Positions 35,431 to 46,786 of a stretch of 64,000 nucleotides of DNA are shown piece after piece (within the stretch, counting starts at the first letter, position 1; the number at the start of each line of letters is the position of its first letter). Location: positions 101,739 through 165,738 of the forward strand of contig JAKPOP010000027.1 in NCBI GenBank assembly GCA_029547805.1, written 5' to 3'. This stretch comes from Deltaproteobacteria bacterium. GTDB lineage: Bacteria > Myxococcota_A > UBA9042 > DTJE01. Under the pieces are notes generated by a model. It had not been told where the DNA came from and did not search any database. It saw only the letters and a list, made by a program, of their open reading frames with translations. A program made the position numbers and the translations under genes.

Positions 35431-35610
35431 GGCAGGCCTCCACGGTGAGCACCTGGGGGAATGCTAGGACTTCCGGGAGTTGCTGGCAAGCGGTCCCCCC
35501 ACGGCGAACCACCTTCCAGGGGGCCTGTGACCGGCCCGGGCACCCGCCCCTGGATGCCGCCGCCGATGGACCTTCCATCGCGATCAAGATTTCCTTGCAA
35601 CCGGAGACTT

Positions 35611-35619
35611 TGCTATCAT
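35611..35619 (+). promoter_or_regulatory. Extended -10 promoter (TGCTATCAT) upstream of giant lipoprotein gene
   Basis: TGn-TATCAT with no well-spaced -35 consensus; AGGAGG SD at about 35692 before ATG 35704. Confidence 0.5.
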
Positions 35620-35703
35620 CAGATGGTTCACTGCGTTCCAGGATTCCCGGCTCGTCTGGTAGGGGGGAATCGGGCAACGTCCCTGAAGGCCGAGGAGGTT
35701 CCC

Positions 35704-38700
35704 ATGGAGCCGCGCTGTCGCCGGTACGCCTTGATGGCCCTGCTGACGCTCTCGATGGCCGCCTGTGGCGGAGGAGGGAGTCATCCACCGGACTTCGGGT
35801 TCGAGGACGCCCCGGACGAGGGGGCGGACCTGGTGACGCCGGACCTGCCTCGGGACGTGCCGGAGGACGGGACCCGGGACCTCGGGAGCGACGAGGGCAA
35901 GGACGCTCCGGACGTCCGCGACGTACCCGACGTCGCCCCGGACCCGGGGGACACCGGGCCCGACGTGGTGACCTGCGAGGTGGATGGGGACTGCCCCGAC
36001 GACCCGGTGAACCAGTGCCTGGTGGGCCGTTGCGAGGCCCGGCGGTGCACGCTGGCCCCCCGGGACTGCAACGACGGCCTCGACTGCACCTACGACGAGG
36101 CCTGCGACCCCGATCGCCCCGGCGGGTGCAACCACATCTTCCTGCCCAACGTGCCGTGCCAGCCCTGCTCCTCGGACGACCAGTGCCGGAGCGCCAGTTC
36201 CTGCGACCAGAACACCTGCGTGGAGTGCCCGAAGCCCGGATCGACCCTGGACCAGTTCGACTGCCCGGAGACGGGAAAGGTCTGTCGGCACCTGCCCTGC
36301 GCCAACTGCGAGGACCAGAATCCCTGCACGATCGACTCTTGCGACTCCCAGGGGGTCGTCCACCATGACCCGAAGCCCTGCACCGACTACAACCCCTGCA
36401 CGGCCGATTCCTGCAACCCCCAGACGGGGGAGTGCGTCTTCACGCCCATCTCGGACTGCATCCTGTGCCAGGTCGGAGACAACACCTGCAACTCTCCTGA
36501 GAACAATCCCAGCCCGAAGTGCCTGATCGGGACATGCACCGGCATTCCCCTGGAGAACGGGTCGGTGCCGTGCGGGTCGGGGTGCCCTGGCGGGTCGGTC
36601 TGCGATCAGGCCAGCGGGCTGTGCCAGGTGAACATCTGCCGCTACACCCGGAACTCCTGTCAGGACGGGGACCTCTGCACGTCGGACCGCTGCGACGACA
36701 CCCTGGGCTGCGTTCACGAGTGCGTCTGCCCCGAATGCACCCAGCCCGGCGAGGACGCCCCCGAGTGCAACGACGGCAACCTCTGCACGCTGGACGCCTG
36801 CATCGCGGTGACTCCCGGGAGCACCTGCGCCGAGGGCGCCAACTACTGTGCCTACCGGCCCCTGTCCTGCGACGACGACAACCCCTTCACGTGGGACACC
36901 TGCGACCCGGTCGTGGGGTGCCTGCACAACCTGCTGCCCCAGGAATGCCAGTTCGACGAGGAGTGTCAGCAGGTGGTGGGGCTGTGCGGCGACGGAATCT
37001 GCGAGGGCGGGACCTGCCGCCTGGAACCGCGGTCCTGCGACGACGGGGACCCCTGCACGATGGACGACTGCGCGTCGGATCGCGGCTGCGTCTATTCGCC
37101 GATCCCCGGCGGCTGCGGCGAGAGCATCTGCCGGAGCGAGCGGGACTGTGACGACGGGGACCCCTGCACAATCGACTCCTGTGCCGCGGACCCCCTGGAC
37201 CCGGGGAAGTCCTACTGCCATCACCGGGTGGACCCCTGCAACGACAGCAACCCCTGCACGACGGACTACTGCCAGGCCGGAAGCGGCTGCGTCCACATCA
37301 CGATTCCCCAGTGCATCGGGCCGGTCTGCCGCACCGACGGCGATTGCGAGGACGCCTCGCTCTGCTCCTTCGGGAAGTGCAACCGCCAGACGGGCGTTTG
37401 CTACCAGGTCCCGAAGAACTGCGACGACGGGGACCAGTGCACGCTGGACGAGTGCAACCTGGCGAATGGGCAGTGCCGTCACTCCCTGGACGAGACGAAG
37501 CCCAATTGCGTGGGGTGCAGCACCGACAAGGAGTGCGAGGCGGCCAACACGAACCCCTGCCGGACGGCCTCTTGCAACCGGGACACCGGCTATTGTCGCT
37601 TCGAGGAGAAGACCTGCAACGACGGGGACCAGTGCACCGCCGACTCCTGCGACCAGAACACGGGCAACTGCCGGTTCCAGCGCATCCCGGGCTGCTTCCA
37701 CTGCCCCAACGGCGTGCTGGACTGCCCCGAGCCCGCCGACTGCTGCCGCTATGCGATCTGCGACAAGAGCCAGGACCCCCAGGGCGTCTGCGTCTATGAG
37801 CCCCTGGTCTGCAACAGCGGGAACCTGTGCCAGACGGGCCAGTGCAACCCGGCGACCTGCAAGTGCGAGTTCGGGCCCCGGGATTGCGACGATGGCAACC
37901 CCTGCACGACCGACGAGTGCCGCATCGCCGTGGGCTGCGTGAACACCCCGGTCATCTGCAACGACAACAACAGGTGCACGAACGACTCCTGCGACCGGGC
38001 CACGGGGCAGTGCGTCTTCACGCCCCGGGTCTGTGACGACGGAGACCCCTGCACCGAGGACTACTGCAGCCCCACCTCGGGAACCTGCGAGGCCCGGCCC
38101 TACGACTGCGACGACGGCAACCAGTGCACCTTCGATACCTGCATCCAGGGGGTCGGGTGCAGCCACACCCTGAATCCCTTCCCGCCCTGCGGAACCGGGT
38201 GCCAGAAGGACAGCGACTGCAACGACTCGAACGCCTGCACGACGGACCGCTGCGACCAGTCCCAGACCCCGAGCCGGTGTCTCTTCACGGTGAAGGACTG
38301 CGAGGACGCGGACCCCTGCACGCTGGACTACTGCAACCCGGCCACCGGGCAGTGCGAGCACCGGGGGCAGTTGTGCGACGACCAGGACCCATGCACGATC
38401 GACTGGTGCGATCAGTCGGGCAACTGCCGGCACACCTCGGCCTTCCCCTCCGACGGGAACCGCTGCACCCAGGACTCCTGCGACGAGAACTGCGGGGGGG
38501 CCATCTTCCTGCCCTACAAGAATCCCGACGAGCCGGCCTGCGCGAACTTCCGCTGTACGAAGGACGCCGACTGCACGATCCAGGGGAATCGCTGCGCCAC
38601 GGGCAAGTGCAACACCGCGACGGGGGTCTGCTCGGCCCAGTGCGTGGCCTGCAACGACAACAACCCCTGCACGGTGGACCGGTGCAACCCGGTCACGGGT

Positions 38701-41700
38701 CAGTGCCAGTACCTGGCCACGATCTGCGATGACGGCAACCTCTGCACCCGGGACACCTGCGACCGGAACACGGGGCGATGCCTGTTCACGCCGGCCGATT
38801 GCGACGATGGCGACCCCTGCACGATCGACTTCTGCAACAGCACGACCGGCGCCTGCCAGCACGAGCTGATCCTCTGCAACGACAACGACCCCTGCACGAA
38901 GGACCAGTGCGACCGGACCACGGGCCAGTGCACCTACACGCTGACCCCCTACGACGACAACAATCGTTGCACGGAGGACTACTGCGACCGGTCCACGGGG
39001 CAATGGGTCAGCGTGCCCATCGACTGCGACGACGGCAATCCGTGCACCCAGGACCTGTGCGACCCGAGGACCGGGCTCTGCTCCTACCAGGTGAAGGCAT
39101 GCGACGACGGCAACGCCTGCACCGAGGACGCCTGCTCGCCGCTGACCGGCGCATGCGTCTTCCTGGAGAAGGTCTGCGGCGAGGCGCCTCCCTGCACGAC
39201 GCTGGCCTGCGACTCCCGGACCGGGCTCTGCGTCGCCTCCCCGCGGAATTGCGATGACGGCAACGCCTGTACGGACGACTTCTGCGACCCGAACACGAAC
39301 CAGTGCGCCCACCGGGTGATCGACTGTGCCGACGACAACCTCTGCACGGAAGACACCTGCGACCCGGCCCGGGGCTGCCGCCATGCGGACCGGAGCCTGC
39401 TGTGCAACGACGCGGACCCCTGCACGACGGACACCTGCGACCCGATGGTCGGGTGCCGCCATGCCCGGATCACGGCGCCGCCCCAGTGCCCCGCCTGCAC
39501 GCGGGACATGGAGTGCTTCGATGGCAACCTCTGCGTCCAGGCCCGGTGCCAGGAGGGCGCCTGCGTCTATGAGCCGACCACCGCCTGCGAGGACCTGGAC
39601 CTCTGCACGACCAACCTCTGCGACGGTCGGACCGGGTCGTGCGTGGCGATCCGGAAGGACTGCCAGGACGGCCTGAAGTGCACCCAGGACCTGTGCAATC
39701 CCGTCACCGGGGCCTGCTACTACCAGCCGGTGGTCTGCGACGACCTGAATCCCTGCACGGTGGACCAGTGCGACCTCAACACCGGGGCCTGCGGCTACGT
39801 CGAGGCCACCTGTTCCGACGGCAATCCCTGCACGCTGGACTTCTGCGACCCCGTGCTGGGATGCGTCCACGCTGACGCCTCGGCGGCCTGCGACGATGCG
39901 AATCCCTGCACCGTCGACTCCTGCGACCTGCGGACCGGGGAGTGCCGGCACGAGGCGAAGGCCTGCTCCACGACCGACAAGTGCCGGGAGGCCTACTGCT
40001 CCCCCATCACCGGGGAGTGCGAGACGGCCCCGAAGTCCTGCGACGATCGGAATGCCTGCACGGCCGACTCCTGCGACCCCGCCACCGGGAAGTGCCTCCA
40101 CGTTGCGAAGTCCTGCGACGACGGCAACTGCTGCACCCGGGACCTCTGCGAGGCCTCGACCGGCGTCTGCACCCACACGCCGGAGACCTGCGACGACCAG
40201 AACCCCTGCACGCTGGGGACCTGCAATGCCCAGACCTGTGGCTGCGAGTACCGGGCGGTGAACTGCGACGATGGCAATCCCTGCACGCTGGACCGGTGCT
40301 CGCCGTCCTCGGGCGGGTGCGTCCATGACCCGATGACCTGCAACGATGACAATCCGAACACGCTGGACCTCTGCGTGCCCGAGGTGGGGTGCGTCTATCG
40401 CCCGACGGGGACCTGCACGAAGAACAGCGACTGCAACGACCAGAACGCCTGCACGACGGACACCTGCTCCGGAAGCCGGTGCACCTGGTCCAACAAGGCC
40501 TGCAACGACAACAACCCGTGCACGGTGGACTGGTGCTCGGCGGTGTCCGGGGCCTGCCAGAACACCCCGGTGAGCTGCGACGACGGGGACTTCTGCACCG
40601 TCGACTCCTGCGACCCGGTGACCGGGGCCTGCCGACACGTGCCCCGGTTCTGCGACGACGGGACCAAGTGCACCACCGACGCCTGCGACCCCGCGACCGG
40701 TGCCTGCGTCTTCACGCCGCTGAACTGCAACGACAACGACCCCTGCACCCGGGACGAGTGCTGGACCGCCTCGGGCTGCGTCCACCTCCCGGTGGAGACC
40801 GACGACGGCAATCTCTGCACGACCGATGCCTGCGACCCGGTCTCGGGGCGGGTCACCCACACCCCGAAGAACTGCAACGACGGGGACCCCTGCACGGTGG
40901 ACTTCTGCCAGGCCTTCAACGGGGAGTGCCGCAACGAGCCCAAGGACGTCGATGACGGCAATGCCTGCACGGTGGACCTCTGCGACCCGCAGACGGGCAT
41001 CGTCCGGCACTTCGGCAAGGACTGCAGCGACAACGACCCCTGCACGGTGGACACCTGCGAGCCCGGGAGCGCCCGCTGCATCCACACCCCGAAGCCGCTG
41101 GACGACGGCAACCGCTGCACGATCGACTTCTGCGACCCGATCTCGGGCATCGTGCATCACGACCCGAAGCCCTGCAATGACGGGAACCCCTGCACCCAGG
41201 ACCTGTGCGACGAGCAGACCGGGGACTGCTACTTCCCGGACGTGCTGGTGGACGACTTCAACCCCTGCACGATCGACTCCTGCGACCGGGCCACGGGCCT
41301 GATCCGCCACGACCCCGTGACCTGCCCCGCCGACAACGACCCCTGCACGGACGACATCTGCATTCCGGGCCTCGGCGGCTGTGGCAACGTTCCGAAGGTG
41401 GTGGACGACCGGAACTTCTGCACGCTGGACTGGTGCGACCCGACGACCGGCGTGGTGCACCATGACCCGGTGGACTGCTTCGACGAAAATCCCTGCACGG
41501 CCGACGAGTGCGATCCGGCCCGCGGGTGCGTGCACCCCGAGGTGAATTGCGACGACGGGCTCGGGTGCACCTACGACCTCTGCAACCCCCTGACCGGGGC
41601 CTGCATCCATCGCCAGAATCCCTGCGACGACGGCAACGAGTGCACCAGCACCGAGTGCGTGGAGCCAGAGGGTGTCTGCACCTTCGCCCCGAAGGACTGC

Positions 41701-44700
41701 AACGACAACGATCCCTGCACGATCGTGGACGTCTGCAACACCGGGACCGGGGCCTGCCAGTACATCATCCGCGACTGCACCGACGAGGACGCCTGCACGG
41801 TGGACTTCTGCGACCCGGCGGACGGCACCTGCCGGCACACGCCACGGGTGTGTCCCGGAGACCCCGACGACAAGTGCCTGGTCGGCTGGTGCAACCCTCC
41901 CGACGGGGAGTGCCGGATCGTCGCCAAGACCGACGTGGGCCGGGAGTGCGATGACCGGAACCCCTGCACGGTGGACTCCTGCGACCCGGCCACCGGGGCC
42001 TGCACCCACACCCCGACCGGGAACTGCACGCCCTGTGCCTCCGAGGAGGACCCGGCCTGCGACGACGGGAACGCCTGCACGCTGGATCGCTGCGACATGG
42101 TGCTGGGGATCTGCTACTCGGTGCCGGTGATCTGTGACGACGGCAACCTCTGCACGACCGAGTCCTGCGACCCGGCGGTCGGGTGCGTCTACGTGGAGAA
42201 GGACTGCTCCGACGGCAATCTCTGCACGGTGGACCTCTGTGACATCTACTCGGGCAACTGCTACTACCCGCCGGTGAACTGCGATGACGGGTCGGTCTGC
42301 ACGACGGACACCTGCACTCCTGCCACCGGGTGCGAGCACGTGATCCGCTGCCAGGACACGGACCCCTGCACGGAGGACACCTGCGACTTCGCCACCGGGG
42401 AGTGCCTCTACCCGGTCAAGTCCTGCGACGACAACAATGCCTGCACCCGGGACTACTGCGTGGTCGAGGCCGGCGTCCCCGTCTGCCACAACGACGTCAT
42501 CTCCACCTGCGAGGACGGGGACCCCTGCACGATCGACTACTGCAACCCCGGGACGGGACGATGCGAGAACCCGCCGGAGTGCGAGGACCTCGATGCCTGC
42601 ACGATCGACGTCTGCGTCACGTCGGGCGGGGTCTTCGAGCGGTGCGAGTTCCAGGAGAAGAACTGCGACGACGGCAACCTCTGCACGCTGGACCTCTGCG
42701 ACCCGGCCAGCGGGGCCTGCCTGCATGTCCCGATCGACTGCGACGACGCGAACCTCTGCACGCTGGACTCCTGCGACCTGGCCACCGGACAGTGCGTGAA
42801 CCAGCCTCGGACCTGCGACGACGGGGACCTCTGCACCGACGACTACTGCTACCCCCTGGACGGCAGTTGCCGGACTCGGCCGACGGTCTGCGACGACCGG
42901 AATCCCTGTACCGATGACGCGTGCGTGCCGGGCCAGGGCTGCGTCTTCACGCCGGTCGTGCCCTGCACCCCGTGCACCGAGGACGCCGAGTGCGCCGATA
43001 CGGACCCCTGCACCGACGACGTCTGCAACCTGGGCCTCGGCGGACGATGCACGAACGAGCCCAAGAACTGCTCGGACCTGAATCCCTGCACGGCGGACCT
43101 CTGCGACCCGGCGACCGGCCAGTGCCAGAACCCGGCCCTCTGCGTGGACGGCCTGAACTGCACGGTGGATGGCTGCCTCCCTGATGGAAGCGGCATCGTC
43201 TGCGTGTTCACGCCCATCGACTGCAACGACGACAACCTCTGCACGATCGATGCCTGCGTCGAGGCGACGGGCAAGTGCGTCCGGGAGCCGGTGGTCTGCA
43301 ACGACTTCCTGCCGTGCACGCTGGATGCGTGCAGCCCCCTGATCGGGTGCTACACCACCGATGTGACCTGCAACGACGGGGACCCCTGCACCGCCGACTC
43401 CTGCAACCCGGCCAACGGCGACTGCGTCTTCACGCCGTTGACCTGCGACGACAACAATGCCTGCACGGTGGACTCCTGCGATGCGAACGGATGCCAGCAT
43501 CGGCCCGTCACCTGCGATGACGGCGACCTCTGCACGATCGATTCGTGCGAACCGGGCATCGGTTGCGTCTTCACGCCGAAGGTCTGCGATGACGGGGACC
43601 CGTGCAGCAACGACTACTGCAATCCGACCGACGGGGGCTGCTACACCCGGAACAAGTGCGATGACGGCAATGCCTGCACCCAGGACCTCTGCGACTCGAA
43701 CACCGGGGCGTGCCTGCACCTGCCGCCGCCGTCCTGCGACGACCGGATCGCCTGCACGGTGGACTCCTGCAACCCGGTGACCGGGGCCTGCGTGCACGAC
43801 GACTCGGCCTGCATTCGGTGCTCGGCGACGAACCCCTGCCCCTCGGATGACAACGCCTGCACCGAGGACACCTGCAACCTGTCCCTGGGCTACTGCACCT
43901 ACGGCGCGAACCGCTGCGAGGACCCGGCGGACCCGGACAACTTCTGCCGCCAGGGGACCTGCAACCCGGCCACCGGGGAGTGCAGTCCTCCGACAGACGT
44001 GGTCTGCCCCGACGACGGCAATCCCTGCACGATCGAGACCTGCGAGCGGGCGACCGGGTTCTGCCGAAGCACCTACAAGGACTGCGACGACGGGGACCTC
44101 TGCACCCGGGACTCGTGCAGCCTGACCACCGGCCAGTGCGTGCATGAGCCGATCACCTGCGCTCCGAACGAGGACCCCTGCCTGGAGAATCGATGCGACC
44201 CGGCCAACGGCGTCTGCCGTCCCTTCGACCGGAACTGCGACGACGGGGTCCTGTGCACGATCGACTCCTGCGCGCCGGGGGTCGGATGCGTGCACAACGA
44301 CAGCACCTGCACCACCTGCGGTCCGACCCGGCCCTGCCAGGGGGGCAACGGCTGCGTGCTGGTCGAGTGCATCTCGGGCTACTGCGAGGCCCGCCTGAAG
44401 GACTGCGATGACGGCGATGCCTGCACGGTGGACGAGTGCAACGGGGAGACCGGGGAGTGCGTGACCGGGCCGGACCCGGTGGACTGCGACGACGGAGACC
44501 CCTGCACGATCGACACCTGCGACCCCATCGATGGCTGTCAGCACGGCGCGGTGAACTGTGACGACGGCAACCCCTGCACCCAGGACCTCTGCGACAACCA
44601 GGGGCAGTGCCAGCATCCACCGACGGTCTGCGACGATGGCCTCGCCTGCACCACCGACTCCTGCGACCCGGCCCAGGGGTGCGTGTCTGAACCCATCCAG

Positions 44701-45648
44701 TGCCCGGACCCGCCGAACCCGCTCAACCTCTGCCGGTTCTACGTCTGCCGGGAGCCCGCGGGGCAGTGCGCGCTGATCGACAACGACTGCAATGATGGCA
44801 CCGCCTGCACGGACGACTCCTGCGTGCCCTTGACCGGGGAGTGCCGCTACACGCGGAACGCCTCCTGCCAGGCGTGCACCTCCGATGCCCAGTGCAACGA
44901 CGGCAACCTCTGCACCGGGGACTTCTGCGTCACGGTCAGCGGCGTTCAGTTCTGCGCCTTCCTGCCCCGGGACTGCGACGACGGCGTCACGTGCACCACG
45001 GACGCCTGCGACCCCGGCACCGGGCAGTGCATCCATGATCCGAACTGCCCCGACGACGGCAACAAGTGCACGCTGGAGGAGTGCAACCCCATCACCAACG
45101 CCTGCTTCAGCACGCCGAAGGTCTGCGACGACAACGACCCCTGCACGGTGGACTCCTGCGACCAGGCGACGGGCCTGTGCGTGTTCCAGCGCATCCCGGG
45201 CTGCTGCCAGACCGCCGCGGACTGCAACGACGGCTTCGCCTGCACGATCGATGACTGCATTGCCGGGCAGTGCACGAACGACCCGAAGGTCTGCGACGAC
45301 GTGAACCCCTGCACCGAGGACGCCTGCAACCCCGCCAACGGGCAGTGCGTCTTCACGCCGATCCCCTACTGTTGCCGGAGTCCCCAGGACTGCGACGACC
45401 AGGACCTCTGCTCGATCGACGAGTGCAACTCCGAGACGAGGACCTGCGTCTACACGCCGGTTCCCTGCGTGGACTTCAACCCCTGCACGCGGGACTCCTG
45501 CGACAGCGCCACCGGACAGTGCCGCCACGACGAGATTCCGGGCTGCTGCCTCAACGACGCCCAGTGCGACGACGGCAACTACTGCACCCGGGACTTCTGC
45601 AACGACGGGAACTTCTGCTCCCACGACCCGATTCCCGGGTGCACCTGA
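35704..45648 (+). CDS. Giant Cys/Asp-rich repeat lipoprotein (3,314 aa; Dicty_CTDC-like repeats)
   Basis: Signal peptide MEPRCRRYALMALLTLSMAACGGGG with lipobox, Asp/Pro-rich linker, then about 112 hand-counted C-x5-C-T-x-D-x-C-x6/7-C units to the C-terminus. Confidence 0.93.
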   Translation: MEPRCRRYALMALLTLSMAACGGGGSHPPDFGFEDAPDEGADLVTPDLPRDVPEDGTRDLGSDEGKDAPDVRDVPDVAPDPGDTGPDVVTCEVDGDCPDDPVNQCLVGRCEARRCTLAPRDCNDGLDCTYDEACDPDRPGGCNHIFLPNVPCQPCSSDDQCRSASSCDQNTCVECPKPGSTLDQFDCPETGKVCRHLPCANCEDQNPCTIDSCDSQGVVHHDPKPCTDYNPCTADSCNPQTGECVFTPISDCILCQVGDNTCNSPENNPSPKCLIGTCTGIPLENGSVPCGSGCPGGSVCDQASGLCQVNICRYTRNSCQDGDLCTSDRCDDTLGCVHECVCPECTQPGEDAPECNDGNLCTLDACIAVTPGSTCAEGANYCAYRPLSCDDDNPFTWDTCDPVVGCLHNLLPQECQFDEECQQVVGLCGDGICEGGTCRLEPRSCDDGDPCTMDDCASDRGCVYSPIPGGCGESICRSERDCDDGDPCTIDSCAADPLDPGKSYCHHRVDPCNDSNPCTTDYCQAGSGCVHITIPQCIGPVCRTDGDCEDASLCSFGKCNRQTGVCYQVPKNCDDGDQCTLDECNLANGQCRHSLDETKPNCVGCSTDKECEAANTNPCRTASCNRDTGYCRFEEKTCNDGDQCTADSCDQNTGNCRFQRIPGCFHCPNGVLDCPEPADCCRYAICDKSQDPQGVCVYEPLVCNSGNLCQTGQCNPATCKCEFGPRDCDDGNPCTTDECRIAVGCVNTPVICNDNNRCTNDSCDRATGQCVFTPRVCDDGDPCTEDYCSPTSGTCEARPYDCDDGNQCTFDTCIQGVGCSHTLNPFPPCGTGCQKDSDCNDSNACTTDRCDQSQTPSRCLFTVKDCEDADPCTLDYCNPATGQCEHRGQLCDDQDPCTIDWCDQSGNCRHTSAFPSDGNRCTQDSCDENCGGAIFLPYKNPDEPACANFRCTKDADCTIQGNRCATGKCNTATGVCSAQCVACNDNNPCTVDRCNPVTGQCQYLATICDDGNLCTRDTCDRNTGRCLFTPADCDDGDPCTIDFCNSTTGACQHELILCNDNDPCTKDQCDRTTGQCTYTLTPYDDNNRCTEDYCDRSTGQWVSVPIDCDDGNPCTQDLCDPRTGLCSYQVKACDDGNACTEDACSPLTGACVFLEKVCGEAPPCTTLACDSRTGLCVASPRNCDDGNACTDDFCDPNTNQCAHRVIDCADDNLCTEDTCDPARGCRHADRSLLCNDADPCTTDTCDPMVGCRHARITAPPQCPACTRDMECFDGNLCVQARCQEGACVYEPTTACEDLDLCTTNLCDGRTGSCVAIRKDCQDGLKCTQDLCNPVTGACYYQPVVCDDLNPCTVDQCDLNTGACGYVEATCSDGNPCTLDFCDPVLGCVHADASAACDDANPCTVDSCDLRTGECRHEAKACSTTDKCREAYCSPITGECETAPKSCDDRNACTADSCDPATGKCLHVAKSCDDGNCCTRDLCEASTGVCTHTPETCDDQNPCTLGTCNAQTCGCEYRAVNCDDGNPCTLDRCSPSSGGCVHDPMTCNDDNPNTLDLCVPEVGCVYRPTGTCTKNSDCNDQNACTTDTCSGSRCTWSNKACNDNNPCTVDWCSAVSGACQNTPVSCDDGDFCTVDSCDPVTGACRHVPRFCDDGTKCTTDACDPATGACVFTPLNCNDNDPCTRDECWTASGCVHLPVETDDGNLCTTDACDPVSGRVTHTPKNCNDGDPCTVDFCQAFNGECRNEPKDVDDGNACTVDLCDPQTGIVRHFGKDCSDNDPCTVDTCEPGSARCIHTPKPLDDGNRCTIDFCDPISGIVHHDPKPCNDGNPCTQDLCDEQTGDCYFPDVLVDDFNPCTIDSCDRATGLIRHDPVTCPADNDPCTDDICIPGLGGCGNVPKVVDDRNFCTLDWCDPTTGVVHHDPVDCFDENPCTADECDPARGCVHPEVNCDDGLGCTYDLCNPLTGACIHRQNPCDDGNECTSTECVEPEGVCTFAPKDCNDNDPCTIVDVCNTGTGACQYIIRDCTDEDACTVDFCDPADGTCRHTPRVCPGDPDDKCLVGWCNPPDGECRIVAKTDVGRECDDRNPCTVDSCDPATGACTHTPTGNCTPCASEEDPACDDGNACTLDRCDMVLGICYSVPVICDDGNLCTTESCDPAVGCVYVEKDCSDGNLCTVDLCDIYSGNCYYPPVNCDDGSVCTTDTCTPATGCEHVIRCQDTDPCTEDTCDFATGECLYPVKSCDDNNACTRDYCVVEAGVPVCHNDVISTCEDGDPCTIDYCNPGTGRCENPPECEDLDACTIDVCVTSGGVFERCEFQEKNCDDGNLCTLDLCDPASGACLHVPIDCDDANLCTLDSCDLATGQCVNQPRTCDDGDLCTDDYCYPLDGSCRTRPTVCDDRNPCTDDACVPGQGCVFTPVVPCTPCTEDAECADTDPCTDDVCNLGLGGRCTNEPKNCSDLNPCTADLCDPATGQCQNPALCVDGLNCTVDGCLPDGSGIVCVFTPIDCNDDNLCTIDACVEATGKCVREPVVCNDFLPCTLDACSPLIGCYTTDVTCNDGDPCTADSCNPANGDCVFTPLTCDDNNACTVDSCDANGCQHRPVTCDDGDLCTIDSCEPGIGCVFTPKVCDDGDPCSNDYCNPTDGGCYTRNKCDDGNACTQDLCDSNTGACLHLPPPSCDDRIACTVDSCNPVTGACVHDDSACIRCSATNPCPSDDNACTEDTCNLSLGYCTYGANRCEDPADPDNFCRQGTCNPATGECSPPTDVVCPDDGNPCTIETCERATGFCRSTYKDCDDGDLCTRDSCSLTTGQCVHEPITCAPNEDPCLENRCDPANGVCRPFDRNCDDGVLCTIDSCAPGVGCVHNDSTCTTCGPTRPCQGGNGCVLVECISGYCEARLKDCDDGDACTVDECNGETGECVTGPDPVDCDDGDPCTIDTCDPIDGCQHGAVNCDDGNPCTQDLCDNQGQCQHPPTVCDDGLACTTDSCDPAQGCVSEPIQCPDPPNPLNLCRFYVCREPAGQCALIDNDCNDGTACTDDSCVPLTGECRYTRNASCQACTSDAQCNDGNLCTGDFCVTVSGVQFCAFLPRDCDDGVTCTTDACDPGTGQCIHDPNCPDDGNKCTLEECNPITNACFSTPKVCDDNDPCTVDSCDQATGLCVFQRIPGCCQTAADCNDGFACTIDDCIAGQCTNDPKVCDDVNPCTEDACNPANGQCVFTPIPYCCRSPQDCDDQDLCSIDECNSETRTCVYTPVPCVDFNPCTRDSCDSATGQCRHDEIPGCCLNDAQCDDGNYCTRDFCNDGNFCSHDPIPGCT
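36060..45645 (+). repeat. Degenerate coding tandem repeat, about 75-bp basic unit (CDDGNPCTxDxCDPxTGxCxHxPx)
   Basis: Recurring gactgcgacgacggcaacccctgcacg-type blocks throughout. Confidence 0.93.
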
Positions 45649-45739
45649 TCCGGTGGGGGCGAGGCATCCCGTTGCAGGTCGAACCGCCGCCCGGGTCGGG
45701 GCCGGGTCCGTCTGCTCCCCCAGGACCGACGTCTCGCGA

Positions 45740-45768
45740 TTGACGCCCTGGCGGGGCGGGAGTATATA
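45740..45768 (+). promoter_or_regulatory. Sigma70-like promoter TTGACG-N17-TATATA for prs
   Basis: -35 45740-45745, -10 45763-45768, prs ATG 45800. Confidence 0.7.
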
Positions 45769-45799
45769 GGCGCCGCCTGCCCCGCTCCGGGAGGACCCG

Positions 45800-46786
45800 A
45801 TGAATGCCGAGCTGATCCTCTTCTCCGGTTCCTCCCATCCGGAACTGGCCCAGCGGATCGCCGACCAGATGGGGCTTCCCCTGGGAAGGAGCCAGAGCCA
45901 CCGATTCTCCAACGAGAACGTGATGGTGCGCCTGGAGGACAACGTCCGGGAGAAGGACGTCTTCGTGATCCAGACCTCCAGCAGCCCGGTCAATGACCAC
46001 CTGGTGGAGCTCCTGATCTTCATCGATGCGATCAAGTACGCCAGCGCGGCGCGGATCACCGCGGTGCTCCCCTACTACCCCTACTGCCGGTCGGACAAGA
46101 AGGACGAGCCCCGGATCTCGGTGGCGGCCCGGCTGGTGGCGGACCTGCTCCAGACGGCCGGCGCCGACCGGGTCCTGTCGATGAACCTCCACTCGCCCCA
46201 GATCATGGGGTTCTTTCACATCCCGGTGGACCAGTTGCTGGCGGCGCCCATCTTCTTCGACCACTTCGATCGGACCCTGTTCCGGCAGAAGAGCCGGAAG
46301 AGCGAGTGGGTGCTGGTCTTCGGCGACGCGGGGGCGGCCAAGGCCTTCGCCTACTACGCCGACGAACTGGGGCTCCCGGTGGCGATCATGGACAAGGCCC
46401 GGACCGACCACTCGGAGCGCCCGGTGGTGCGCCAGGTCATCGGGGACGTCCGGAACAAGGCCTGCCTGATCGTGGACGACGAGATCACCTCCGGGGGGAC
46501 CCTCGTGGAGGCCGCGATCAAGTTGAAGGAGGTGGGCGCCCGGCGCATCCTGGCCGCCGCAGTGCACCCGGTCCTCTCGGGCAACGCCGTCGAGAAACTG
46601 GTCAAGTCGCCCATCGAGCGAGTGATCGTCGGCAATACCCTGCCGGTGCAGCACAAGATCCAGGCCCACCGGAAGCGCTTCGAGGTGCTGGACCTCTCGC
46701 CGCTGTTCGCGAAGGCCATCCGGTGCATCCATGACGGCACGTCGATGTCGGCCCTCTTCCCGCCGTCGGTGCGGCGCCGGGGTTGA
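45800..46786 (+). CDS. prs: Ribose-phosphate pyrophosphokinase
   Basis: LILFSGSSHPELAQRIA, FSNENVMVRLEDNVREKDVFVIQ, PYYPYCRSDKKDEPRISVAARLVADLLQTAG, LIVDDEITSGGTL. Confidence 0.93.
   Translation: MNAELILFSGSSHPELAQRIADQMGLPLGRSQSHRFSNENVMVRLEDNVREKDVFVIQTSSSPVNDHLVELLIFIDAIKYASAARITAVLPYYPYCRSDKKDEPRISVAARLVADLLQTAGADRVLSMNLHSPQIMGFFHIPVDQLLAAPIFFDHFDRTLFRQKSRKSEWVLVFGDAGAAKAFAYYADELGLPVAIMDKARTDHSERPVVRQVIGDVRNKACLIVDDEITSGGTLVEAAIKLKEVGARRILAAAVHPVLSGNAVEKLVKSPIERVIVGNTLPVQHKIQAHRKRFEVLDLSPLFAKAIRCIHDGTSMSALFPPSVRRRG

Follow-up and report, generated by a model that had tools for sequence, protein, structure and literature searches.

A stretch of 64,000 nt (hereafter the window) from a Myxococcota genome of 4.08 Mb, in 32 contigs and 97% complete, carries a giant gene for a CTDC-repeat lipoprotein, and in related proteins the cysteines of this repeat have been lost in specific pairs that point to a ladder of disulfides running from one unit to the next. 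We put at roughly 60% the probability that the product is a lipid-tethered, oxidised, disulfide-laddered extracellular rod or matrix fibre. Such a protein would be exported as a lipoprotein, and its mature part would consist of ~113 small beta-hairpins in series, probably oxidised by periplasmic VKOR-thioredoxin fusion enzymes; C1 would bond to C4 and close each hairpin, C2 would be joined to C3 of the next hairpin to give a continuous ladder, inserts would supply cysteines that patch the ladder and a lone cysteine would cap its C-terminus. The lipid and a flexible Asp/Pro tether would hold the protein to the outer membrane, and its extracellular role would most likely be that of a long rod or matrix fibre, resistant to proteases and to force, with no binding head. 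More than 100 hairpins joined in a covalent ladder and kept in register across genera would, if true, be an unusual bacterial surface material.

The giant 3,314-aa gene of the original prediction is indeed present, with a frame that is open throughout (Table 1), as are the lipobox signal peptide and the Asp/Pro linker that had been ascribed to it. Read from the translation and from orthologues, the protein begins with MEPRCRRYALMALLTLSMAAC followed by GGGG, the lipobox being residues 16-21 and present also in the complete orthologues. Glycine at position +2 is no inner-membrane retention signal in E. coli, a rule that is unproven in the phylum Myxococcota. The linker is the fastest-evolving part of the protein, with a dN/dS of 0.39 against the same-genus copy described below. 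Cysteine accounts for 508 of the 3,314 residues (15.3%), a content far from chance, and Asp for 468. The array follows a tandem ~24-residue C-x5-C-T-x-D-x-C-x5/6-C pattern with a modal spacing of 25 residues and a nearly invariant Asp in the unit core, and the last unit extends to the C-terminus of the protein. The 112 CTxDxC units first counted stand as a number of four-cysteine units, 113 of which have the relaxed form C-x5-C-x4/5-C, but not as a number of literal CTxDxC motifs, of which there are 88 (79 within a strict C-x5-CTxDxC). It was fair to call the array almost unbroken, with ~30 junctions in it that exceed 30 residues, many of these containing degenerate units. The promoter that the gene was thought to have of its own was not recovered, the sole sigma-70-like match upstream being on the minus strand and none being found on the plus strand. 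A 3,491-aa open frame (window 35584-46059, minus strand) runs antisense to the entire gene; it is probably no gene, and would be open because stop codons are scarce on the antisense strand of a gene with such GC-rich codons (GC3 0.93).

Table 1. Features of the giant gene and its surroundings, numbered by position in the window.
Feature	Position	Strand	Description and basis
Shine-Dalgarno-like GAGGAGG	35692..35698	+	5 nt before ATG; read from sequence
Giant CTDC-repeat lipoprotein gene	35704..45648	+	3,314 aa plus stop; open frame, translation, Pfam
Signal peptide and lipobox LSMAAC	35704..35766	+	Predicted lipidated Cys21, Gly at +2; translation, complete orthologues
Asp/Pro-rich flexible linker, residues 22-90	35767..35973	+	Translation; G011 comparison
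Irregular Cys-rich N-terminal stretch, residues 91-201	35974..36306	+	Precedes first clear CTxDxC unit; translation, unit table
CTDC array, residues 202-3314	36307..45645	+	Tandem 23-27-residue four-Cys units; PF00526, unit table
Five-unit segment, AlphaFold2 model	40423..40797	+	Beta-hairpin per unit, mean pLDDT 94.8
14-unit segment, AlphaFold2 model	40492..41553	+	pLDDT 87.7, pTM 0.37; Foldseek
Segment, residues 1699-1924	40798..41475	+	Alternate units (1699, 1749, 1799, 1849, 1900) without both C1 and C4; unit table, orthologue paired changes
C-terminal capping Cys3313 (IPGCT)	45640..45642	+	Predicted partner is C2 of last unit; orthologue tails
prsA, ribose-phosphate pyrophosphokinase	45800..46786	+	Family-conserved neighbour

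The gene has a 3,315-aa counterpart in another genome of the genus, G011, with 89.5% amino acid identity, one indel of a single residue and 508 of 508 cysteines identical; dN/dS against this copy is 0.16, the value for prsA being 0.037. A database search found the same gene in JAGOKF010000018.1 (Myxococcota MAG, isolate Go_SlDig_bin_299), which is probably not additional to the G011 copy. The gene is also present in further genera of the family, immediately 5' of prsA and in the same orientation. In two of these genera it encodes copies of 3,328 and 3,335 aa that can be aligned over their full length, every gap being shorter than 15, and that retain 97-98% of the cysteines against an identity of 41-43% at other residues. 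When units are compared one by one, their identity is 0.41-0.44 at matching positions of the array and falls to 0.25-0.30 if the register is moved by one to four units; individual units have therefore retained their identity without being homogenised. Copies in genus g2 are ~1,500 residues shorter, which is consistent with a large internal deletion, and copies elsewhere are truncated solely at contig ends. With draft genomes and a repetitive gene it might be supposed that the length of the array is an error of assembly or gene calling, or that the gene has decayed; we consider this extremely improbable and, as far as sequence allows, refuted. Exact direct repeats inside the gene reach 27 nt at most, with no 31-mer occurring twice, so the gene is no assembly artefact, and this, together with the single one-residue difference from G011, speaks against the earlier concern that it might prove shorter or frameshifted. 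The dN/dS value and the intact copies in further genera argue in the same direction.

The pairing of the cysteines was approached through natural variation in ~3,500 bacterial units, located by their non-cysteine residues, from which a set of 1,399 distinct units and then a set of ~3,400 units with C2 and C3 present were scored for joint losses. In the former C1 and C4 were both absent from 35 units, C1 alone from 7 and C4 alone from 25 (odds ratio 266, p 1.5e-46), far above the odds ratios of 2-10 for other pairs, and in the larger set the corresponding figures were 44, 12 and 36 with 3,302 units lacking neither (odds ratio 336, p 6e-67). When orthologues are compared, C1 and C4 change jointly at 11 unit positions. 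At direct junctions C2(n) and C3(n+1) were both lost in 3 cases, singly in 1 and 1, and both kept in 2,044 (p 1.1e-8). The sequences are related and independent events are fewer than all these counts, amounting to ~11 positions for the C1-C4 pair and 7 junctions at which the loss of C3 is informative. C3 was missing from its usual place in 12 units, having been displaced by an insertion in 3 and genuinely lost in 9; of the nine, six come after a unit without C2, two open their arrays and the remaining one is preceded by a junction that has a single extra cysteine. Most apparent C3 losses in the 1,399-unit set are CTxDDxC units, in which C3 is shifted by one.

Where a unit has no C2, the subsequent junction or insert brings the cysteine count back to even in 14 of 15 cases, which fits substitution of the lost C2 by an insert cysteine. 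Furthermore, every orthologue compared has a lone cysteine after its last unit (here ...IPGCT), as is expected because the ladder would leave the C2 of that unit unpaired. Counted from the C1 of that unit to the C-terminus, the cysteines are odd in number for 39 of 46 tails, with several of the remaining 7 looking to have been cut by a contig end. The paired and compensated losses and the lone capping cysteine together imply, in so far as variation can reveal bonds, that C1 would pair with C4 within the unit and C2(n) with C3(n+1) between units. Two other pairings were rejected, a C2-C3 bond inside one unit and a C3(n)-C2(n+1) bond with the polarity of the Entamoeba lectin discussed below, each having zero double losses in direct junctions. 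A parity test of three C2/C3 pairings with a loose unit anchor, which counted low-complexity linkers and displaced cysteines as units, gave even:odd counts of 40:24, 26:38 and 39:25. The bond scheme drawn from bacterial unit variation is new here and would turn the paired-loss analysis into a concrete bond map for every CTDC protein, Dictyostelium matrix proteins included.

The product had been described as disulfide-armoured, for which there is now strong indirect support in the paired losses, the invariance of the cysteines, cysteine counts that are mostly even and the predicted periplasmic oxidases. After the lipobox the count is even in the window protein and in L100, L101, L103, L105 and L106, and odd in L104. 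Two VKOR fusions are encoded in the source genome, in which no match to DsbB was found, one being VKOR-DsbA and the other VKOR-thioredoxin with a thioredoxin match below the Pfam cut-off; their presence makes the oxidation of exported proteins plausible, and the giant protein may be one of their substrates. The VKOR-thioredoxin gene (L150:730-3415, G000:C19 near 101215) immediately follows, in the same orientation, a gene for a carbon-nitrogen hydrolase resembling apolipoprotein N-acyltransferase, and a single transcript at this locus may serve both the maturation of lipoproteins and the formation of disulfides. The VKOR-DsbA gene is adjoined by a gene for a Cys-rich putative lipoprotein (L149:229-1206, minus strand).

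We regard it as unlikely that the protein never reaches the surface and is instead a spacer, either periplasmic or tethered to the outer membrane, or else a protein that binds Ca2+ or other metals or buffers thiols, with ions held by its Asp residues and its cysteines acting as a redox sink. The 468 Asp residues, the near invariance of the Asp in the unit core and the MopE metal-binding motifs of one paralogue in the same genome would suit such a protein, and a lipobox alone is no proof of surface display. However, a thiol buffer has no need of exact pairing, yet the cysteines have been lost in specific pairs and compensated, and more than 100 hairpins in a row would be very long for the periplasm unless the chain is folded back.

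The profile search places the protein in the CTDC family, as had been proposed, with 1478.6 bits over 91 stretches for Pfam PF00526 Dicty_CTDC (curated cut-off 27 bits); no other Pfam domain and no NCBIfam family was matched, and neither search revealed a separate ligand-binding head. Phmmer and profile searches of PDB sequences with the protein gave no match, and PF00526 was among the repeat families without known structure in a 2021 modelling survey (PMC8078820). AlphaFold2 modelling of a short segment predicts a hairpin for every one of five units with a pTM of 0.67, and with pLDDT values that are high but pTM values that are low for both five and 14 units, the local hairpin fold can be taken as confident whilst the overall shape and length of a rod cannot. 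The heavy chain (HgL) of the Entamoeba Gal/GalNAc lectin was the top Foldseek match of both models (E 1.9e-4 and 1.8e-9, probability 1.00), with low global TM-scores of 0.16-0.32 that make the similarity a local one. For the filament of the original prediction, the models and the match to the lectin arm thus lend support to an extended chain of hairpins, but not to any overall shape or length.

Surface exposure and a part in adhesion, cell-cell contact or predation, as the original prediction suggested, are conjecture. That the array or particular units of it bind prey or other cells, its length giving reach, is in our estimation improbable. The nearest solved fold does belong to an adhesin complex (PMC12948311), and position-specific unit sequences have been kept between genera, which would be needless for a mere spacer; against this, the Entamoeba heavy chain showed no binding of sugar, the site being on the light chain (PMC12948311), and the conserved neighbourhood of the giant gene holds nothing that points to predation. 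A structural role as a rod or in a matrix fits better than an adhesin, because CTDC is the sole family detected and no separate adhesive head was found.

The giant array is no isolated oddity in its genome, which has ~20 CTDC-containing frames, most of them with a readable lipobox and an Asp-rich linker. The CTDC lipoproteins at L113, L114, L115 and L118 resemble the giant protein in having a lipobox where the start is readable, an Asp-rich linker and CTDC units, but there are fewer clear units in them, the giant protein being an almost pure array. Extra domains are found in CTDC proteins of the genome, namely a lamin-tail domain (L114), the MopE motifs mentioned above (L125) and cohesin, the last of these in a 4,615-aa open frame with CTDC units and two cohesin-domain matches (L112, G000:C12:20000-39000). 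A second giant Cys-rich frame of 3,559 aa (L113, G000:C23:303000-316000) has 123 relaxed four-Cys frameworks and 35 CTxDxC motifs.

In a sample of the phylum 142 of 237 genomes had a CTDC match; the genomes listed from the same class all had matches, nearly all of them at least 34, the rest of the phylum was patchy, and there were no matches in 14 control genomes. A related family of the same class (f3) has ~800-2,969 first-look CTDC candidates per genome, mostly several-fold above the 549 of the window genome. A CTDC frame in genome G162 has 5,296 aa and the window protein is thus not the record. One array, L142:2739-5915 (G143:C421), consists of nearly identical 24-residue units, that is a recent expansion, the units of the window gene being diverged and fixed. 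Outside the Myxococcota a database search found CTDC matches in Chitinophagales, Saprospiraceae and one Candidatus Uhrbacteria MAG; both the latter (L066) and a Chitinophagales MAG (L061) have CTDC arrays, and those of L066 terminate in a lone cysteine. No description of bacterial CTDC proteins was found in the literature searched. A broader proposal, to which we give slightly less than even odds, is that an interlocking, capped and patched CTDC disulfide ladder, fixed unit by unit, serves some Myxococcota as a general scaffold in the form of surface cables of great length that are stapled covalently; the ladder would be either related to amoebozoan matrix proteins and lectin arms or convergent with them.

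Among known systems the Cys-rich arc and arm of HgL (Entamoeba histolytica, PDB 9gja-9gjg) and the CTDC units are alike in being small beta units with four cysteines and, on the bond scheme proposed above, in having C1-C4 within the unit. Cryo-EM of HgL has shown pseudo-domains of 20-35 residues with four cysteines, in which C1-C4 lies within, C2 bonds the previous domain and C3 the next, such that the arm is rigidified (PMC12948311). This direction is opposite to the C2(n)-C3(n+1) linkage proposed for the CTDC array, and because of this reversal we do not claim membership in the HgL arrangement, although the principle of linking units by disulfides would be common to both. HgL also has mostly three-stranded pseudo-domains, globular domains and a transmembrane helix where the CTDC model has hairpins, and no sequence match between the two was found by phmmer or profile search. 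The dictyostelid proteins EcmA, EcmB, PdiA, PsiA, PsiF and PsiN have the same PF00526 repeat model as the giant protein, EcmA and EcmB being matrix proteins that bear the CTDC domain (PMC4931340, PMC9117722). Compared through the Pfam model and published descriptions, the giant protein differs from them in being bacterial and predicted to be lipid-anchored, with an Asp/Pro tether, no PA14 and an array that is fixed unit for unit between genera; Ecm-type proteins are soluble and secreted, whereas the giant protein carries a lipobox. One small fold would connect a bacterial group, the slime moulds and the arm of an amoebal adhesin.
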